Assembly (NCBI RefSeq): GCF_000384075.1
Contig: NZ_KB913025.1
Location: forward strand, 1,244,119-1,308,118
Direction of reading: 5' to 3'
Origin: Methylovulum miyakonense HT12
GTDB taxonomy: Bacteria > Pseudomonadota > Gammaproteobacteria > Methylococcales > Methylomonadaceae
DNA: 64,000 nucleotides
Below, piece by piece: positions 5,009-56,473 of the stretch. The notes below the pieces were generated by a model. It saw only the letters and a list, made by a program, of their open reading frames with translations. It searched no databases and had not been told where the DNA came from. How positions within the stretch are numbered: the stretch's first letter is position 1; the number at the start of each line of letters is the position of its first letter. Made by a program: the position numbers and the translations under genes.

Positions 5009-6162
<1,154 letters not shown>

Positions 6163-6269
6163 GCGGTTCAGCACCCAGCCTGCAACTGATCGCCAGATTT
6201 CTAAACCGCAACGGTGTTGGCAATCCAAATCTGGCCTCAGGATTATTGCCTTAACCGAGGAATATCCCT

Positions 6270-7160
6270 ATAAAACTCCTATTTGCAACCGGCCCATCCA
6301 TCAATACCCGTCTGCTCGTGGCCGTCATTACGTCTGTGGCACTGCTAATCACCGAACAACGAGGCCAGCAACTGGATTTTTTGCGTGCCACTTTATCTTT
6401 TTTTATCGAACCGTTACGGCATCTGGTGGACCTGCCGACGGTGCTTATCGAACAGACCACCGAATCAATCAATTCCTATGTGGAACTCAAAAATGAAAAT
6501 GGGCGTTTGCGTGACGAACAGCTTATCCACCAAACCCGCCTGCTGAAACTTGAGGCCTTAGAAAAAGAAAACATCCGTTTGCGGGCTTTGCTGGAAAACT
6601 CCTTTAAACTCGGCGAACAGGTGCTGATTGCCGAATTGCTGGCCATTAACATGGCCCCGTATGAACACATCTTGGTGGTCAACAAAGGCACACGCTTTGG
6701 CGTGCATCCACAACAACCGGTGCTTGACGCCAATGGTGTCGTTGGCCAGGTTTTCCGGGCCTTGCCATTAAGTTCGGAAATCATGCTGATTACCGACCCG
6801 AACCATGCGATACCGGTGCAGGTCAACCGCAACGGTTTGTTGACCATTGCGGTTGGCAGCGGACAGCCTAACCGTTTGATATTACCGTTCCTGCCCAGCA
6901 ACGCCGATATTCACCCGGGCGATTTGCTGATAACCTCCGGGTTGGGCGGTACCTTCCCACAAGGCTATCCAGTCGCCATTGTCGATGAGTTCACATCCCA
7001 ACCCAACAAGGCTTTTGCCAGCATTACGGCGACCCCTACGGCAAAGCTTGACCGTAACCGCGAACTGATGATCGTCTGGAGCAATTCGGCACCCGTACCC
7101 CTCATAGCCAAACCGCAAGCCCCAGAAACTGCCGTTACAGAAGAAAATGCCCATCAATAA
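6270..7160 (+). CDS. mreC: rod shape-determining protein MreC, likely non-canonical AUA start
   Basis: MreC is a bitopic inner-membrane protein whose periplasmic beta domains link MreB/MreD to PBP2. The frame shows the N-terminal KLLFATGPSINTRLL motif, one membrane helix (LVAVITSVALLI), a coiled coil rich in Glu/Leu (ELKNENGRLRDEQ...), then the beta-sheet core with SSEIMLITDPNH and GDLLITSGLGGTFPQGYPVA. The first conventional start in frame is GTG at 6318, which would cut off the conserved KLLFATGPS head and part of the helix. An ATA at 6270 lies nine bases after GAGG and restores exactly the usual MKxLF start, so I place the start there (296 residues). The stop overlaps mreD by 14 bases. Confidence 0.9.
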   Translation: MKLLFATGPSINTRLLVAVITSVALLITEQRGQQLDFLRATLSFFIEPLRHLVDLPTVLIEQTTESINSYVELKNENGRLRDEQLIHQTRLLKLEALEKENIRLRALLENSFKLGEQVLIAELLAINMAPYEHILVVNKGTRFGVHPQQPVLDANGVVGQVFRALPLSSEIMLITDPNHAIPVQVNRNGLLTIAVGSGQPNRLILPFLPSNADIHPGDLLITSGLGGTFPQGYPVAIVDEFTSQPNKAFASITATPTAKLDRNRELMIVWSNSAPVPLIAKPQAPETAVTEENAHQ

Positions 7161-50804: not shown

Positions 50805-50864
50805 TTTGCAATTGCCGGGGAATTTTTAAAAAGGTAACTGATATTTAGCCATCCTGCACAAACT

Positions 50865-50892
50865 TTGCTTAAGCCCACGCCGGTGGTATAAC
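50865..50892 (+). promoter_or_regulatory. putative promoter of the STAS/RsbW-like/GDH operon
   Basis: TTGCTT (50865-50870) and TATAAC (50887-50892) are 16 bases apart, 26 bases upstream of the STAS gene start. It fits a sigma-70 promoter. No operator repeat was recognised. Confidence 0.5.
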
Positions 50893-50917
50893 AACCAAAA
50901 CCCTTAGGAAAACCACT

Positions 50918-51256
50918 ATGAATTTTAAGCTGGAACAAATTAACGGTTGCCAAGTGTTATCCATACTAGATGAACGCATTGATGCACACAATTCGGCGGA
51001 CTTGAAGGCCGAGTTGTTGCAACTGATCGAACAACACGGGGGGGCTATCGTCGTGCAATTGGAACAAGTGCGTTTCATCGACAGTTCCGGCTTGGGGGCG
51101 TTGTTGTCGGGACATAAGCAGGCGGTTGCCAAATCCGGCAAATTGGTTTTGGTCAAGATCCAGCAGCCTGTATTGGCGATGTTTGAAATCACACGTTTGA
51201 ATCGGGTGTTTGAGATTTATGCCGATTTGGATGAAGCTTCCGCAGCACAAACCTAA
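50918..51256 (+). CDS. STAS-domain anti-sigma factor antagonist
   Basis: 112-residue STAS-domain protein of the SpoIIAA/RsbV type. The phosphorylation-site serine lies in VRFIDSSGLGALLSGHKQA, and the flanking pattern (DERIDAHNSADLKAEL) is standard. In partner-switching systems such a protein is phosphorylated by an RsbW-type kinase and, when dephosphorylated, binds that kinase and frees its target. Its likely kinase is the next gene, 23 bases downstream. No sigma factor or PP2C phosphatase gene is visible next to it. Confidence 0.92.
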   Translation: MNFKLEQINGCQVLSILDERIDAHNSADLKAELLQLIEQHGGAIVVQLEQVRFIDSSGLGALLSGHKQAVAKSGKLVLVKIQQPVLAMFEITRLNRVFEIYADLDEASAAQT

Positions 51257-51279
51257 ACCCTATAAAGTGGAGCCGTGCC

Positions 51280-51702
51280 ATGAGCCCAGCCATCCTGCAA
51301 GTCGATGTCATCATCCCCACGCAAACCCGCTATTTGGATCTCATCGGCAGCATCGGTGAACGTATCGCCAAGGAACTGGACAGCTATTCCGGTGACCGGG
51401 AAGCCTTGGCCTATCACCTTAACCTGGTGCTGACGGAAGCGACCGCCAACGCCATCAAACATGCCCAAGACAATGAAGCCAAGAACACGGTCAGGATTTG
51501 CATACATATTGAAGACCGGCAACTGACCATTAAAGTCTATGACCACGGCCAGGGTTTTAATTTGGAAGCCGTGGCAAAACCCGATTTTGACCACCCCAAA
51601 GAAAATGGCATGGGCTTGTTTTTTATCAGGACGTTAATGGATTCGGTCACCTACACGCAGCAGGCGGACGGTAATGTGCTGGAGATCATCAAATACTTAT
51701 GA
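51280..51702 (+). CDS. RsbW/SpoIIAB-like ATP-binding anti-sigma (serine kinase) protein
   Basis: 140-residue HATPase domain protein of the RsbW class, which phosphorylates a STAS antagonist and sequesters a partner. The N box is LTEATANAIKHAQ, the G1 box DHGQGF and the G2 box ENGMGLFFIRTLMDSV. It overlaps the glutamate dehydrogenase gene by four bases (ATGA), so both are translated together. Its target is unknown: no sigma factor gene is adjacent, which makes the dehydrogenase or a distant factor the candidate (inference). Confidence 0.9.
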   Translation: MSPAILQVDVIIPTQTRYLDLIGSIGERIAKELDSYSGDREALAYHLNLVLTEATANAIKHAQDNEAKNTVRICIHIEDRQLTIKVYDHGQGFNLEAVAKPDFDHPKENGMGLFFIRTLMDSVTYTQQADGNVLEIIKYL

Positions 51703-54700
51703 ACACTTCATGGAATGGACAATTGCTGCAATTGGCGGCCCGGACGTTGGGCAAAGCAAGCGCCGAATCGCTCATCCTACATTACCAGACGCTGTTTAGC
51801 GGTGAATACCAGGCTTTGGTGTCCCCGCGTTATGCGCTGCAAGACATGTTGTATTTGGAAAAGCTAAGTACGGAAGAAGCGCAAAGCGTCAGTTTATTAA
51901 GGCCATGCCAACAGATTGGCCATTTCCGCCTGCATTTTTACAGCCGACAAAAACGGTTTCTGGATGAATACATCCCGCTCTTGGAAAACCTCAGTTTGCG
52001 GGTGCTGGATCAAGTGCAGTTCCGTGTGTTGACGGCAGATGGCGGCTTATTTTTTATTAAAAGCTTCACCATCAGCGCCGCCAAAGACTTGCACGAAAGC
52101 TTCCCGAAATTACGCGGCCGGATGTTGGCGGTTTTGCAAGCGGTGATGGACGGCAAAATTGAAAATGACACGCTCAACAAACTGTGTGTGCTGGCAGGCT
52201 TGCCTTGGCAAGAAATTGATTTGCTCCGCACTTACCGTAACTATTTTTTGCAGCTGGACCACCATACTAGCCGGATCAGCTTCCATCACGCCTTAATCAA
52301 CTATCCTGAGGTGGCAAAAGGGCTGTGCCAGTATTTCGAGGCGCGGTTCCGGCCCAATCCTGAGTGGCAAGACGCCATGATACGGGAAGAACAGGCTTTG
52401 TTCCCTTTGCGCCTACGTTTGTTGGACAGCTTAAAAATGGTTGCCGACATGAACGCCGACCGTATTTTACGGACGCTGTTCAACCTGATTGATGCGACCA
52501 TGCGCAGCAATTTTTATGTCCGGCATGACTTGGACGAGTATTTCATTGCCATAAAAATTAATAGCTTGGGTGTCATTGATATGCCCCTGCCCAAGCCGCA
52601 GGTCGAGATTTATGTGCACGCTGTCGATATGGAAGGCATCCATTTGCGCGGTGGGAAAATTTCGCGCGGCGGTATCCGCTGGTCTGACCGTCCTGATGAT
52701 TTCCGGACGGAGATTTTGGGCCTGATGCAAACCCAGATCAGCAAAAATGCCTTGATTATCCCGACGGGTGCAAAAGGTGGATTTGTCGTGAAAAAGAATG
52801 GCGGCAAATTGGATTTTCGGGCCGCCGGTAAACAGGCGTACCTGAAACTGATGCACGGTTTGTTGGATTTGACTGACAATCTTGTCGATGGCCACATCGT
52901 CGCGCCGCCAAATTTGGTCACGTATGACGACCCCGACCCGTACCTGGTGGTGGCGGCGGACAAAGGCACGGCGGCGTTTTCCGATATTGCCAATGGGGTT
53001 GCCGCCGAGTACCAGTTCTGGCTGGGCGATGCCTTTGCCAGCGGCGGCTCGCACGGTTATGACCACAAGGCCTTGGGGATAACGGCGCGGGGCGCATGGG
53101 AATGCGTCAAACGGCATTTCCGGGAAATGGGCAAAGACATCCAACACGAAGCCTTTAGCGTCGTCGGTATCGGCAGCATGGACGGCGATGTGTTTGGTAA
53201 CGGCATGCTATTGTCGCCGTGCACCCGTTTGCTGGCGGCATTCAGTGGCCAGCATATCTTTATCGACCCGACCCCCCCTAGCGACGGCCGTGCTTATGAC
53301 GAGCGCAAACGCCTGTTCAACTTGCCTGGCTCCAGTTGGGACGATTACGGGCGTGGCCTCATTTCCGAAGGCGGCGGCGTCTATCTTCGGGCTGATAAGG
53401 ACATCCCTATCTCGCCTGAAGTAAAAGAATGGTTAGGCCTACGTTATAAAGCCCTGGATGGTGAAACCTTGATCCGTGCGTTACTGACGGCACGGGTCGA
53501 TTTGTTATGGCTAGGCGGTATCGGCACTTATGTTAAGGCCAGTGGCGAAAAGCACGAAGAAGCTGGTGACCGTAGCAATGATAATGTCCGTGTCAACGCC
53601 GTAGAGTTACAGGCAACCATCGTCGGTGAAGGTGCAAACCTGGGGTTTACGCAAAAAGCACGGATTGAATTTGCCTTGTGTGGCGGGCGCATCAACACCG
53701 ACGCCGTGGACAATTCGGCAGGGGTGGACACCTCCGACCATGAAGTCAATTTAAAAATCTTGCTTACCGGCTTACAGAAAAAAGCCGTCATAGCCGATTA
53801 CCAAACGTTGTTCGCTGACATGACCGACGCTGTTTGCCATTTGGTGCTGGCGAACAATATTGCCCAAAGTTTGTGCTTGTCGTTGGAGCAACGGCGCGGG
53901 GTGGGGAATATCGGGCCGTACCTCCATCTTGCCGAACGCTTGGAAGCGGCGGGGTTTCTTGATAAACGCGTTGAGTCGTTCCCGCCTAACAAGGAGCTGT
54001 TGCAGCGCCCGGCGCAAACCATCACCCGGCCCGAATGGGCGGTGCTGCTGGCGGCAAGCAAACGCTATCTGACCACGCAAATCCAACACCAAGCCGAATT
54101 GCTGCACGATGATTGTTGCGGCTGTTATTTGCAGGCATATTTCCCTGGGCAACTGGCCCAACAATATCCTACGCATTTGGGTGGGCATCCTTTGGCCAAG
54201 GAAATTAAAGCGACGATGATCAGCAACAAAGTCATCAACCAAGCGGGCTGTGGCTTTTTAAACCTTGCCGCCGAAGCCGATAATGTGTTGGATGCCGTCA
54301 GTTGCTATCTGACATTTGACCGGGTTTTTGAAGGTGACGCCTTACGCGCCGCCATTGCCGCGCTGGACAATCGCATCCCTGCCGACACGCAATACCAGTG
54401 TTTTCTGCAACTGGAAAAAAGCCTGTTGATGGCCTGTTTATGGGTGTTGGGCGAAGCCCGGACGCTACGCCCGGACACCGCGACTTTGTTGGCTTACCGG
54501 CACAACTTGGTGGATTACCATGACTATTTCAAACAACACCAAAGTCCGCTGTTCGTCCAGCAACGCCAAGATTATCAACAAAAAGGGGTACCTGCCGGAT
54601 TGGCGGAAGAACTGGCGATGTTGGCTTGTTTGGATGATTTCGCGTTTATGGTTGGATTGGCCGGCAACACCCAGAAAATGGCTACAATTTTGGAATTGTA

Positions 54701-55019
54701 CGATGAGGTTTGCGGGTTTTTAGGCTTGGGCCATTTGCTTGATAAGCTAGCGCAAGTGCCTTTGCACGATGTTTGGGAGCGCATCGTCGCGGCGGACACT
54801 AAAGCCGGCCTTAAGCAAACCGTAGGCAAAATCATCAGACAAATGCTGGCCAGTCGGATTTACCAATGCGGGGACTATTTTGAGATGACTTCCGGCAAAC
54901 AGGAATTGGCAAATTATCGGCGGGTTTACCAAGACGTAAGCAACGCAACGTCTGCGGATTTGTTGCCGTTTGTGGTCTTGGGCAAGGCGTTGCTCAAGTT
55001 GGTTGGTGGTTGTGGGTAA
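51699..55019 (+). CDS. gdhB: large NAD-dependent glutamate dehydrogenase
   Basis: Oxidatively deaminates glutamate to 2-oxoglutarate with NAD. The 1106-residue protein belongs to the NAD-GDH group (PF05088): RGGKISRGGIRWSDRPDDF, ILGLMQTQISKNALIIPTGA, KGGFVVKKNGG, then GSHGYDHKALGITARGAWE and the nucleotide-binding VVGIGSMDGDVFGNGMLLS. Typical 180-kDa members are about 1600 residues, so this one lacks the long N-terminal ACT-like regulatory part. It is translationally coupled to the RsbW-like gene upstream. The symbol is taken from Pseudomonas-type NAD-GDH and is approximate. Confidence 0.9.
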   Translation: MNTSWNGQLLQLAARTLGKASAESLILHYQTLFSGEYQALVSPRYALQDMLYLEKLSTEEAQSVSLLRPCQQIGHFRLHFYSRQKRFLDEYIPLLENLSLRVLDQVQFRVLTADGGLFFIKSFTISAAKDLHESFPKLRGRMLAVLQAVMDGKIENDTLNKLCVLAGLPWQEIDLLRTYRNYFLQLDHHTSRISFHHALINYPEVAKGLCQYFEARFRPNPEWQDAMIREEQALFPLRLRLLDSLKMVADMNADRILRTLFNLIDATMRSNFYVRHDLDEYFIAIKINSLGVIDMPLPKPQVEIYVHAVDMEGIHLRGGKISRGGIRWSDRPDDFRTEILGLMQTQISKNALIIPTGAKGGFVVKKNGGKLDFRAAGKQAYLKLMHGLLDLTDNLVDGHIVAPPNLVTYDDPDPYLVVAADKGTAAFSDIANGVAAEYQFWLGDAFASGGSHGYDHKALGITARGAWECVKRHFREMGKDIQHEAFSVVGIGSMDGDVFGNGMLLSPCTRLLAAFSGQHIFIDPTPPSDGRAYDERKRLFNLPGSSWDDYGRGLISEGGGVYLRADKDIPISPEVKEWLGLRYKALDGETLIRALLTARVDLLWLGGIGTYVKASGEKHEEAGDRSNDNVRVNAVELQATIVGEGANLGFTQKARIEFALCGGRINTDAVDNSAGVDTSDHEVNLKILLTGLQKKAVIADYQTLFADMTDAVCHLVLANNIAQSLCLSLEQRRGVGNIGPYLHLAERLEAAGFLDKRVESFPPNKELLQRPAQTITRPEWAVLLAASKRYLTTQIQHQAELLHDDCCGCYLQAYFPGQLAQQYPTHLGGHPLAKEIKATMISNKVINQAGCGFLNLAAEADNVLDAVSCYLTFDRVFEGDALRAAIAALDNRIPADTQYQCFLQLEKSLLMACLWVLGEARTLRPDTATLLAYRHNLVDYHDYFKQHQSPLFVQQRQDYQQKGVPAGLAEELAMLACLDDFAFMVGLAGNTQKMATILELYDEVCGFLGLGHLLDKLAQVPLHDVWERIVAADTKAGLKQTVGKIIRQMLASRIYQCGDYFEMTSGKQELANYRRVYQDVSNATSADLLPFVVLGKALLKLVGGCG

Positions 55020-55543: not shown

Positions 55544-56473
55544 TCAGACAAACTCTTGGGGCGAGTTGTTTAAGCTTTGCTGATGGCCTTCAAACCGGAC
55601 ATCAATCTGGTCGCCTGTTTCCAACAGCACGCCATCGGGAAGCCGGAACTCAAAACCACATAGTTCATGGAAGCGTTTATTGCGCTTAGGCACATCGGGG
55701 CGTGACAAATAGGTCGTGATGGTTTGCACCAAAACGCCATTGACCAGCAATTCCAACGACACCGGGTCACGGTGCAAAGTTGACAATGCCCAGCCGGAAA
55801 CACGGTTGCTTGCAAGCGCATCGATATAGCCGACATAGTCTTTGTTTTTTTTGATGGCTTTGAAATTGACCAGCGTGTTGGTGTAAGTCGGCGGGGACGG
55901 CTTGATGAACTCCACGGCTTCGGCGATCTGCGTAGGGTCATCAAGGCCTAAGAATTCTGCAAGCCCCGCCACAAAATCTTCGGGGAACAGCAACGCTTTT
56001 TCATACGAGGCGATGAAAACCGGGCGTTTGGTGAAGCGTAAGAACAACAGCAATTTAAAGTTTAGGCCCAGCACCTTAAACATTTCCGATAACAGCGAAA
56101 TGTTGAAAATGCTCATGCGGCGGTTTGCGGTGGCGAAGATGTCGCGGAGTATGACGACATAAACGGGTTGTCGGAACAAACGGTTCCACCGCCATAAGCG
56201 CAGTTTTTTTATACCCCAAACCGGATACTTGCCATCCCGCTCTTTGATGATTTTTTTGGCTTGCTTTTTGTCATTGCGTTTCAGGCAATCAAGCAAGGCA
56301 GTGTCCTGATAGCGGGAAGATAAGCCATCGCCCATGTAAATGCCAAGTTTTGACAATACGCCAGCGACCATCGACGTGCCGCCGCGGCCTATGCCCAAGA
56401 CCAAAACAGTTTTTTGGGCCAAGCCAGAGGCATCACCGTTTAGTGTCGAATATCCGGTATTGTTTTTTTTCAT
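55544..56473 (-). CDS. sulfotransferase-like protein with C-terminal beta-sandwich domain
   Basis: The N-terminal part has a 5'-phosphosulfate-loop-like VLVLGIGRGGTSMVAGVLSK (residues about 22-41) and a later VYVVILRDIFATANRRM resembling the 3'-phosphate-binding site of PAPS sulfotransferases. The C-terminal 100 residues (YVGYIDALASNRVSGWALST, PVSLELLVNGVLVQT, FHELCGFEFRLPDG) match a beta-sandwich module seen at the ends of glycosyltransferases and related enzymes. The acceptor is unknown; a polysaccharide or lipid is a guess. 309 residues; it follows the multicopper oxidase gene on the same strand. Confidence 0.68.
   Translation of the reverse strand: MKKNNTGYSTLNGDASGLAQKTVLVLGIGRGGTSMVAGVLSKLGIYMGDGLSSRYQDTALLDCLKRNDKKQAKKIIKERDGKYPVWGIKKLRLWRWNRLFRQPVYVVILRDIFATANRRMSIFNISLLSEMFKVLGLNFKLLLFLRFTKRPVFIASYEKALLFPEDFVAGLAEFLGLDDPTQIAEAVEFIKPSPPTYTNTLVNFKAIKKNKDYVGYIDALASNRVSGWALSTLHRDPVSLELLVNGVLVQTITTYLSRPDVPKRNKRFHELCGFEFRLPDGVLLETGDQIDVRFEGHQQSLNNSPQEFV

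Follow-up and report, generated by a model that had tools for sequence, protein, structure and literature searches.

Gene organization of the locus

Three consecutive genes on the forward (+) strand of the genome of Methylovulum miyakonense HT12, located in a stretch of 64,000 nucleotides (hereafter, the window), are considered here as a possible regulatory unit. The chromosome assembly of the host is a single contig of 4.69 Mb. The first gene (50918..51256, 112 amino acids) encodes a STAS-domain antagonist of the RsbV/SpoIIAA type, and the second (51280..51702, 140 amino acids) encodes a GHKL serine kinase of the RsbW/SpoIIAB type, the presumed target-binding protein; both were assigned from the list of open reading frames (ORFs), Pfam, NCBIfam and a search for relatives of known structure. 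The third gene (51699..55019, 1106 amino acids) encodes a large NAD-type glutamate dehydrogenase (GDH) in its short (115-kDa) form, with ACT3, HM3, catalytic and C-terminal domains. The genes of the STAS and RsbW-like proteins are separated by 23 bp, and the latter overlaps the GDH gene by the ATGA at positions 51699-51702. The first-pass annotation of this DNA had joined the three genes in one operon and noted this overlap, and the ORFs lie exactly where it placed them.

Linkage and co-occurrence across the order

The distribution of the genes was surveyed in 201 genomes of the order, with E <= 1e-12 as the threshold for RsbW orthologues. PF05088 was matched in 119 of the 201 genomes, and 90 carry the GDH clade of the window enzyme; clade membership was split by score, consistently with the GDH tree (trees were drawn without support values shown). 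RsbW was found in 109 genomes, of which 89 also contain the clade GDH and 20 do not, while the clade GDH without RsbW was found in a single genome, G005, which also lacks the PP2C phosphatase described below. In family f1, all 63 RsbW genomes contain the clade GDH. The Fisher p-value for the association of RsbW with the GDH clade is 6e-36, ignoring relatedness.

The RsbW and GDH catalytic-domain matches start at most 4.1 kb apart in 85 of the 89 genomes having both, so that the three genes do stay together across genomes, a check that the first-pass annotation had proposed. The four unlinked genomes are G051 (18.6 kb), G058 (882 kb), and G033 and G110 (different contigs); STAS and RsbW are together in all four. 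Reading covered 78 of the approximately 92 known clade GDH loci (from 90 genomes of the order, one of which has two copies, and from G735, a genome of another class), and a complete same-strand STAS-RsbW-GDH cassette was present in 72 of them. One locus (L062, genome G135) is cut at a contig end and contains RsbW upstream of GDH, behind a 187-amino-acid gene (6073-6636) without a Pfam match. The cassette is absent from L034, L048, L078, L086 and L093; for four of these five loci the pair is kept elsewhere in the genome. The STAS-RsbW pair was not found in any of ten loci of the order with GDHs of other clades and wide flanks (L029, L036, L042, L050, L064, L070, L074, L076, L079 and L175); the other stretches, L007-L016, are too short for its presence to be judged.

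Clustering of the flanking genes of 68 loci from 26 genera revealed no family present in more than two genera, with the exception of one mixed cluster of signalling proteins. Within the genera g1, g5 and g10, some of the genomes listed contain RsbW, the clade GDH and PP2C, and others contain none of them. In the sample of the class, RsbW was detected at E <= 1e-15, a threshold at which distant pairs could be missed, in 3 of 369 genomes, all belonging to the order, and no GDH from outside the order exceeded 44% identity over at least 900 residues.

PAS-PP2C phosphatase

The mixed cluster comprises 28 members from 24 loci and 9 genera. Sixteen members (16 loci, 6 genera) are PAS-PP2C phosphatases with the SpoIIE domain; the remaining 12, judged by eye, are various signalling proteins of the PAS, response-regulator or similar kinds, found in no more than five genera and in varied positions. 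The orthologue of the host genome (G000:C1:275992-277872; PAS, PAS and SpoIIE domains) is located approximately 1.02 Mb from the cassette. The initial observation that neither a sigma factor nor a phosphatase gene is present therefore holds for the surroundings of the window genes, but not for the genome, in which the orthologous phosphatase is encoded elsewhere.

At E <= 1e-60, PAS-PP2C was found in 110 of the 201 genomes, namely in all 109 RsbW genomes and in G101, which is 78% complete (Fisher p-value for RsbW with PP2C 1e-57, likewise ignoring relatedness). In 26 of 96 loci checked, the gene shares the stretch with the cassette or the orphan pair at a distance of no more than about 3 kb; in g30 and G156, for example, it follows directly downstream in the same orientation. 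Of the 63 genomes of family f1, 14 have PP2C at most 12 kb from RsbW, 15 have it farther away on that contig, and 34 have it on a different contig. Accordingly, the co-occurrence of these frequently unlinked genes is not explained by one linked deletion.

Proteins of the putative partner switch

The family assignments of the two small proteins are strong: the STAS protein matches Pfam STAS (8.6e-20), and the RsbW-like protein matches HATPase_c_2 (2.9e-25). Among NCBIfam models, the anti-sigma factor antagonist superfamily was matched above its cut-off, and the RsbW and SpoIIAB equivalog models were matched well below theirs. The best solved relative of the kinase is RsbW 6m36 (E 7.3e-07), and it aligns with both RsbW and SpoIIAB; the best solved relatives of the STAS protein are anti-sigma factor antagonists.

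Both serines of the STAS loop, Ser56 and Ser57, are retained in 89 of 89 orthologues (DSSG in 88, GSSG in one). By homology, the phosphorylation site is predicted to be Ser56; passages of two publications (PMC8256260, PMC11619594) give Ser56 as the site of PA3347, SypA and chlamydial RsbV1. Residues Glu53 and Asn57 of the kinase N-box are retained in all 93 RsbW orthologues. The phosphorylation machinery thus looks intact in all orthologues read, including those where the pair has left GDH, and the description of an antagonist with a phospho-serine loop and an RsbW-like kinase is borne out. Together with the SpoIIE-type PP2C, the STAS protein with its serine loop and the GHKL kinase with its N-box have the sequence characteristics of Rsb/Spo-type partner switching.

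The host genome also contains two other, distinct groups of HATPase, STAS and PP2C genes, at about 52-61 kb of G000:C1 (L220) and at about 1.882-1.888 Mb (L221).

Glutamate dehydrogenase

The third protein matches Pfam Bac_GDH_CD (1.5e-216) and GDH_C (4.7e-46), and no NCBIfam model was matched. It aligns to residues 479-1525 of the mycobacterial L-GDH180 (7a1d), which agrees with the earlier description of a short enzyme devoid of the N-terminal region of the 180-kDa members. By its Bac_GDH_CD catalytic domain and truncated N-terminus, the window enzyme is an L-GDH115, for which NAD-dependent oxidation of glutamate is predicted. The L-GDHs115 are described as a class of large GDHs in passages of PMC8175468; they consist of about 1100 amino acids and, like the window GDH, have no ACT1/PAS/ACT2 part. 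Unlike that class as a whole, the window GDH belongs to a clade of its own, which includes long members, and 89 of the 90 genomes with this clade carry the switch.

The shortness of the enzyme, which had initially been tied to the regulatory system, was rejected as a part of it. The STAS-RsbW pair accompanies long GDHs of the clade (1564-1595 amino acids). Neither STAS nor RsbW was matched in the stretches fetched around seven short GDHs (L168-L174), which come from members of the class that do not belong to the order. The long forms and the short ones (about 1075-1204 amino acids as called) are interleaved on the tree of the clade, which implies repeated loss or gain of the N-terminal region; a scan of one long member of the clade (L027) detected neither ACT1 nor ACT2.

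Several residues in conserved glycine-rich motifs are specific to the clade: Ser493 and Asp495 in GSMDGDVFGNG, Leu605, which replaces Asn of 19 of 19 other GDHs, and Ala646, which replaces Gly of 19 of 19. These substitutions may reflect altered cofactor or catalytic behaviour.

The cassette in another class and duplication of the module

Among 398 genomes of the phylum, only two yielded RsbW (E <= 1e-12, a threshold that could miss distant pairs): the host and G735, a genome of the same phylum and a different class, presumably alphaproteobacterial. PF02461, the methane/ammonia monooxygenase family, is matched twice in G735, which is therefore probably a methanotroph; of 12 genomes tested, 7 matched PF02461, and it was unmatched in five members of the order tested, four of which have RsbW without the clade GDH. 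In G735, the genes of STAS, RsbW, GDH (46% identity) and an 886-amino-acid PAS-PP2C form one row, with gaps of 1 and 2 bp or overlaps, and a fragment of a transposase-like gene, recognized by eye, is present upstream.

This is the only genome with this RsbW (E <= 1e-20) among 199 genomes of its order. Within the clade, its GDH is placed in f4 as a neighbour of g30, where the four genes have the identical order; its RsbW is also inside f4, though beside G097 (tree of 93 RsbW sequences). The nesting of both proteins in f4 and the sole occurrence in the order fit horizontal transfer of the four-gene row to G735. Two whole modules were found in genome G100, with identities of 66% in GDH and 85% in RsbW and with PP2C within 1.7 kb of each.

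Search for sigma factors

The 13 window proteins that were scanned, from 45.8 to 60.9 kb, include no sigma factor. A region-2 motif of group 1-3 sigma factors gave no match in a first set of fetched loci, a search in which divergent extracytoplasmic function sigma factors could be missed: in the control, it detected the RpoD- and RpoS-like proteins of the host and missed the RpoE-like one. In the remaining fetched loci, no ORF was matched by BLAST with these three host proteins (E <= 1e-4). A search over 38 genomes gave 2 to 27 sigma-region-2 matches per genome; the matches listed leave room for occasional proximity, and one of these genes, in G037, is about 10 kb away from RsbW, beyond the part of the sequence that was read. 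A sigma factor target encoded alongside the switch was thus not found in the fetched loci. Frequent separation of the pair from the dehydrogenase, next to a sigma factor gene, had been named beforehand as a result that would speak against the coupling. The outcome was mixed: the pair stands apart from the clade GDH in 24 of 109 genomes (GDH elsewhere in 4, none in 20), but no adjacent sigma factor gene was found in the fetched stretches.

Promoter and gene environment

A probable housekeeping promoter of the three-gene unit (sigma-70, extended -10) was recognized by eye at 50864..50893 on the + strand, with the elements TTGCTT and TATAAC, a 16-nucleotide spacer and TG upstream of the -10. The closest named relatives by GDH (five loci found) are from Methylovulum, with identities of 80, 76, 75 and (partial) 73%, and from Methylobacter (62%). 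The promoter element is kept in four of five relatives read (L002, L003, L004 and L006, of which L003 and L006 are mutually close) and absent from L005, which suggests a transcription unit of its own for the three genes; the element was not listed by a consensus promoter scan, and its assignment follows from conservation.

Upstream neighbours in the window are genes of an aminotransferase, a rhodanese and acetate-CoA ligase, and a YchJ-like gene is located downstream. These neighbours were considered as rival partners of the switch and rejected; of the two that were searched for, acetate-CoA ligase and the YchJ-like gene, neither was found in the other loci. At 55544-56473 of the window, a 309-amino-acid protein without a Pfam match is encoded, with a sulfotransferase-like P-loop opening recognized by eye.

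Interpretation

The evidence for a functional coupling of the switch to the clade GDH is strong: linkage is conserved, the genes co-occur, and they form a four-gene row in another class. At about even odds (roughly 0.5), the window genes constitute the linked portion of a complete partner switch that has an enzyme as its output, the catabolic GDH occupying the position of a sigma factor. The four-gene row in G735 suggests that the target travels with the switch, and the near absence of the clade GDH without the switch (1 of 90) suggests that the enzyme depends on it. Direct control of GDH by the switch would be the most economical reading, with binding of the enzyme predicted from the gene arrangement. 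Of the first-pass proposal that a partner switch directly controls glutamate catabolism, the coupling is therefore well supported, and direct contact is inferred.

By analogy with the control of sigma-B, the RsbW-like protein would bind either GDH, keeping it inactive, or STAS. With ample ATP, STAS would be phosphorylated and unable to bind RsbW, and GDH would be held. A signal to the PAS domains or falling ATP would yield unphosphorylated STAS, which would draw RsbW off GDH; the released enzyme would oxidize glutamate to 2-oxoglutarate and ammonium. The trigger of the release would be the PAS-PP2C.

Several observations weigh against this interpretation. The switch is retained without the clade GDH in 20 of the 109 RsbW genomes, including all sampled RsbW genomes of seven genera, so GDH cannot be its only output. 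The neighbourhood was read in 14 of these 20 genomes: in G061 and G075 the module consists of PP2C-STAS-RsbW alone, and in others it adjoins unrelated genes. The loss of adjacent genes can be one single deletion, and the Fisher p-values overstate the evidence because the genomes are related. Orthology is less sure for 12 of the 110 PP2C genomes, where the best match is confined to the C-terminal phosphatase part (starting at query residue 336 or beyond; weakest E 5e-63). The GC content of the G735 cassette (0.581) is no different from that of its flanks (0.566 and 0.601) and gives no sign of transfer. The switch occurs without the clade GDH in 20 of 109 genomes and the clade GDH without the switch in 1 of 90, an asymmetry consistent with the enzyme being one of the clients of the switch.

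Those of the 20 genomes without the clade GDH that are included in the RsbW tree are dispersed within f4, and g28 and g31 branch close to f1. Two of the 14 genomes read, G004 and G016, have the switch beside sucA, which encodes the E1 component of 2-oxoglutarate dehydrogenase; none of the other fetched loci showed this gene. In G004 (L124, 7020-7454 and 7451-10285), the RsbW orthologue overlaps sucA by 4 bp, and STAS is absent from the fetched 15 kb; in G016 (L127, 2010-7507), STAS-RsbW is followed by PP2C on the opposite strand and then by sucA. The switch probably has, or had, a further output in some lineages, for which 2-oxoglutarate dehydrogenase is perhaps a candidate on the basis of these two genomes. 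RsbW without STAS, with PAS-PP2C 1.2 kb upstream, was also found in two g43 genomes, G091 (L118) and G070 (L121), the latter having a normal cassette as well.

Under the rival explanation that fares best, although it is unlikely, the target of the switch is remote, whether a sigma factor, a regulator or another protein, and GDH is co-transcribed through a common nutrient response, with no contact. The 20 genomes that keep the switch without the clade GDH favour it, particularly G061 and G075, where something else must be controlled, and any of the numerous sigma-region-2 matches per genome could serve as the target. It is opposed by the absence of sigma factor genes from the fetched neighbourhoods, by the rarity of the clade GDH without the switch, and by the four-gene row in G735, where the remote target of the donor would need replacing.

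Still less probable is a mechanism in which STAS is the output, its unphosphorylated form binding and activating or inhibiting GDH, and RsbW and PP2C only set its phosphorylation. All of the genetic evidence for coupling fits it equally, and this is the mode described for the enzyme-directed switches HsbA-HsbD, BgrV-BgrR and SiaC-SiaD in PMC8457831 and PMC5085249; the RsbW genes without STAS in L118, L121 and overlapping sucA in G004 weakly favour RsbW as the target-facing part. Conservation of gene order with no functional link, such as close relatives can show by chance, is largely refuted by the scrambled flanks over 26 genera, the co-occurrence of the often non-adjacent PP2C, the four-gene row in another class, the duplication of the whole module and the retention of the pair elsewhere in the genome for four of the five loci where it left GDH.

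Comparison with known systems

The RsbU/RsbP-RsbV-RsbW system of sigma-B and the SpoIIE-SpoIIAA-SpoIIAB system share with the system described here a sensor- or PAS-linked PP2C, a STAS protein with a phospho-serine loop and a GHKL kinase with an N-box, but their target is a sigma factor; here a dehydrogenase is encoded in its place, and no sigma factor gene was found nearby.

Enzyme-directed partner switches are already in print, and those found act on diguanylate cyclases: HsbD, BgrR and SiaD (PMC8457831, PMC5085249). SiaABCD, HptB-HsbA-HsbD and BgrSTUWV-BgrR resemble the present system in combining an enzyme output with a kinase, a phosphatase and an antagonist, and siaD is co-transcribed with siaABC according to a passage of PMC8457831. 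Their target is a second-messenger enzyme with a GGDEF domain, whereas the target predicted here is a central catabolic GDH of another family, without GGDEF; SiaC is, in the same source, a DUF1987 protein, whereas the antagonist here is a STAS protein. In Chlamydia trachomatis, RsbU of the RsbU-RsbV1-RsbW switch is reported to sense 2-oxoglutarate, and the switch has been proposed to act on the tricarboxylic acid cycle (PMC8256260, PMC11619594); the target reported is sigma-66, and the passages of these sources contain no link to GDH.

The GarA/OdhI system of Actinobacteria, with PknG, is also based on a small phospho-switched protein, and its two targets are those hinted at here by the window cassette and by G004 and G016. 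GarA is an FHA protein and is phosphorylated by a Ser/Thr kinase, whereas the components here are STAS, a GHKL kinase (HATPase_c_2) and PP2C, with no FHA domain. Passages of PMC5448819 and PMC8175468 state that GarA in its unphosphorylated form binds directly to large GDH and to 2-oxoglutarate dehydrogenase and inhibits them. A broader view, held tentatively and at less than even odds, is that the four proteins form a self-contained, transferable switch for post-translational control of the 2-oxoglutarate node, acting on GDH in the majority of lineages and on 2-oxoglutarate dehydrogenase in some; it would be a proteobacterial counterpart of GarA/OdhI derived from regulators of sigma factors.

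No paper joining partner switching with GDH, or RsbW with methanotrophs, was found in a search outside which most subscription papers lay. The text of a review of STAS-only proteins (PMC8256260) contains no words beginning with 'enzyme' or 'dehydrogenase', and passages of PMC10623323 name a glutamate dehydrogenase gene in M. capsulatus with no mention of 'anti-sigma'.

Significance

The four-protein system is directly testable, and similar surveys could identify what further orphan STAS/RsbW pairs act on. Partner switches are usually regarded as regulators of transcription or of second-messenger enzymes; if the interpretation is true, a switch acting on a central catabolic enzyme would add a new class of output. 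Methanotrophs are grown for single-cell protein, which gives the control of glutamate loss practical interest. For the bacteria themselves, such a switch would explain how they keep or burn glutamate as methane or nitrogen changes.

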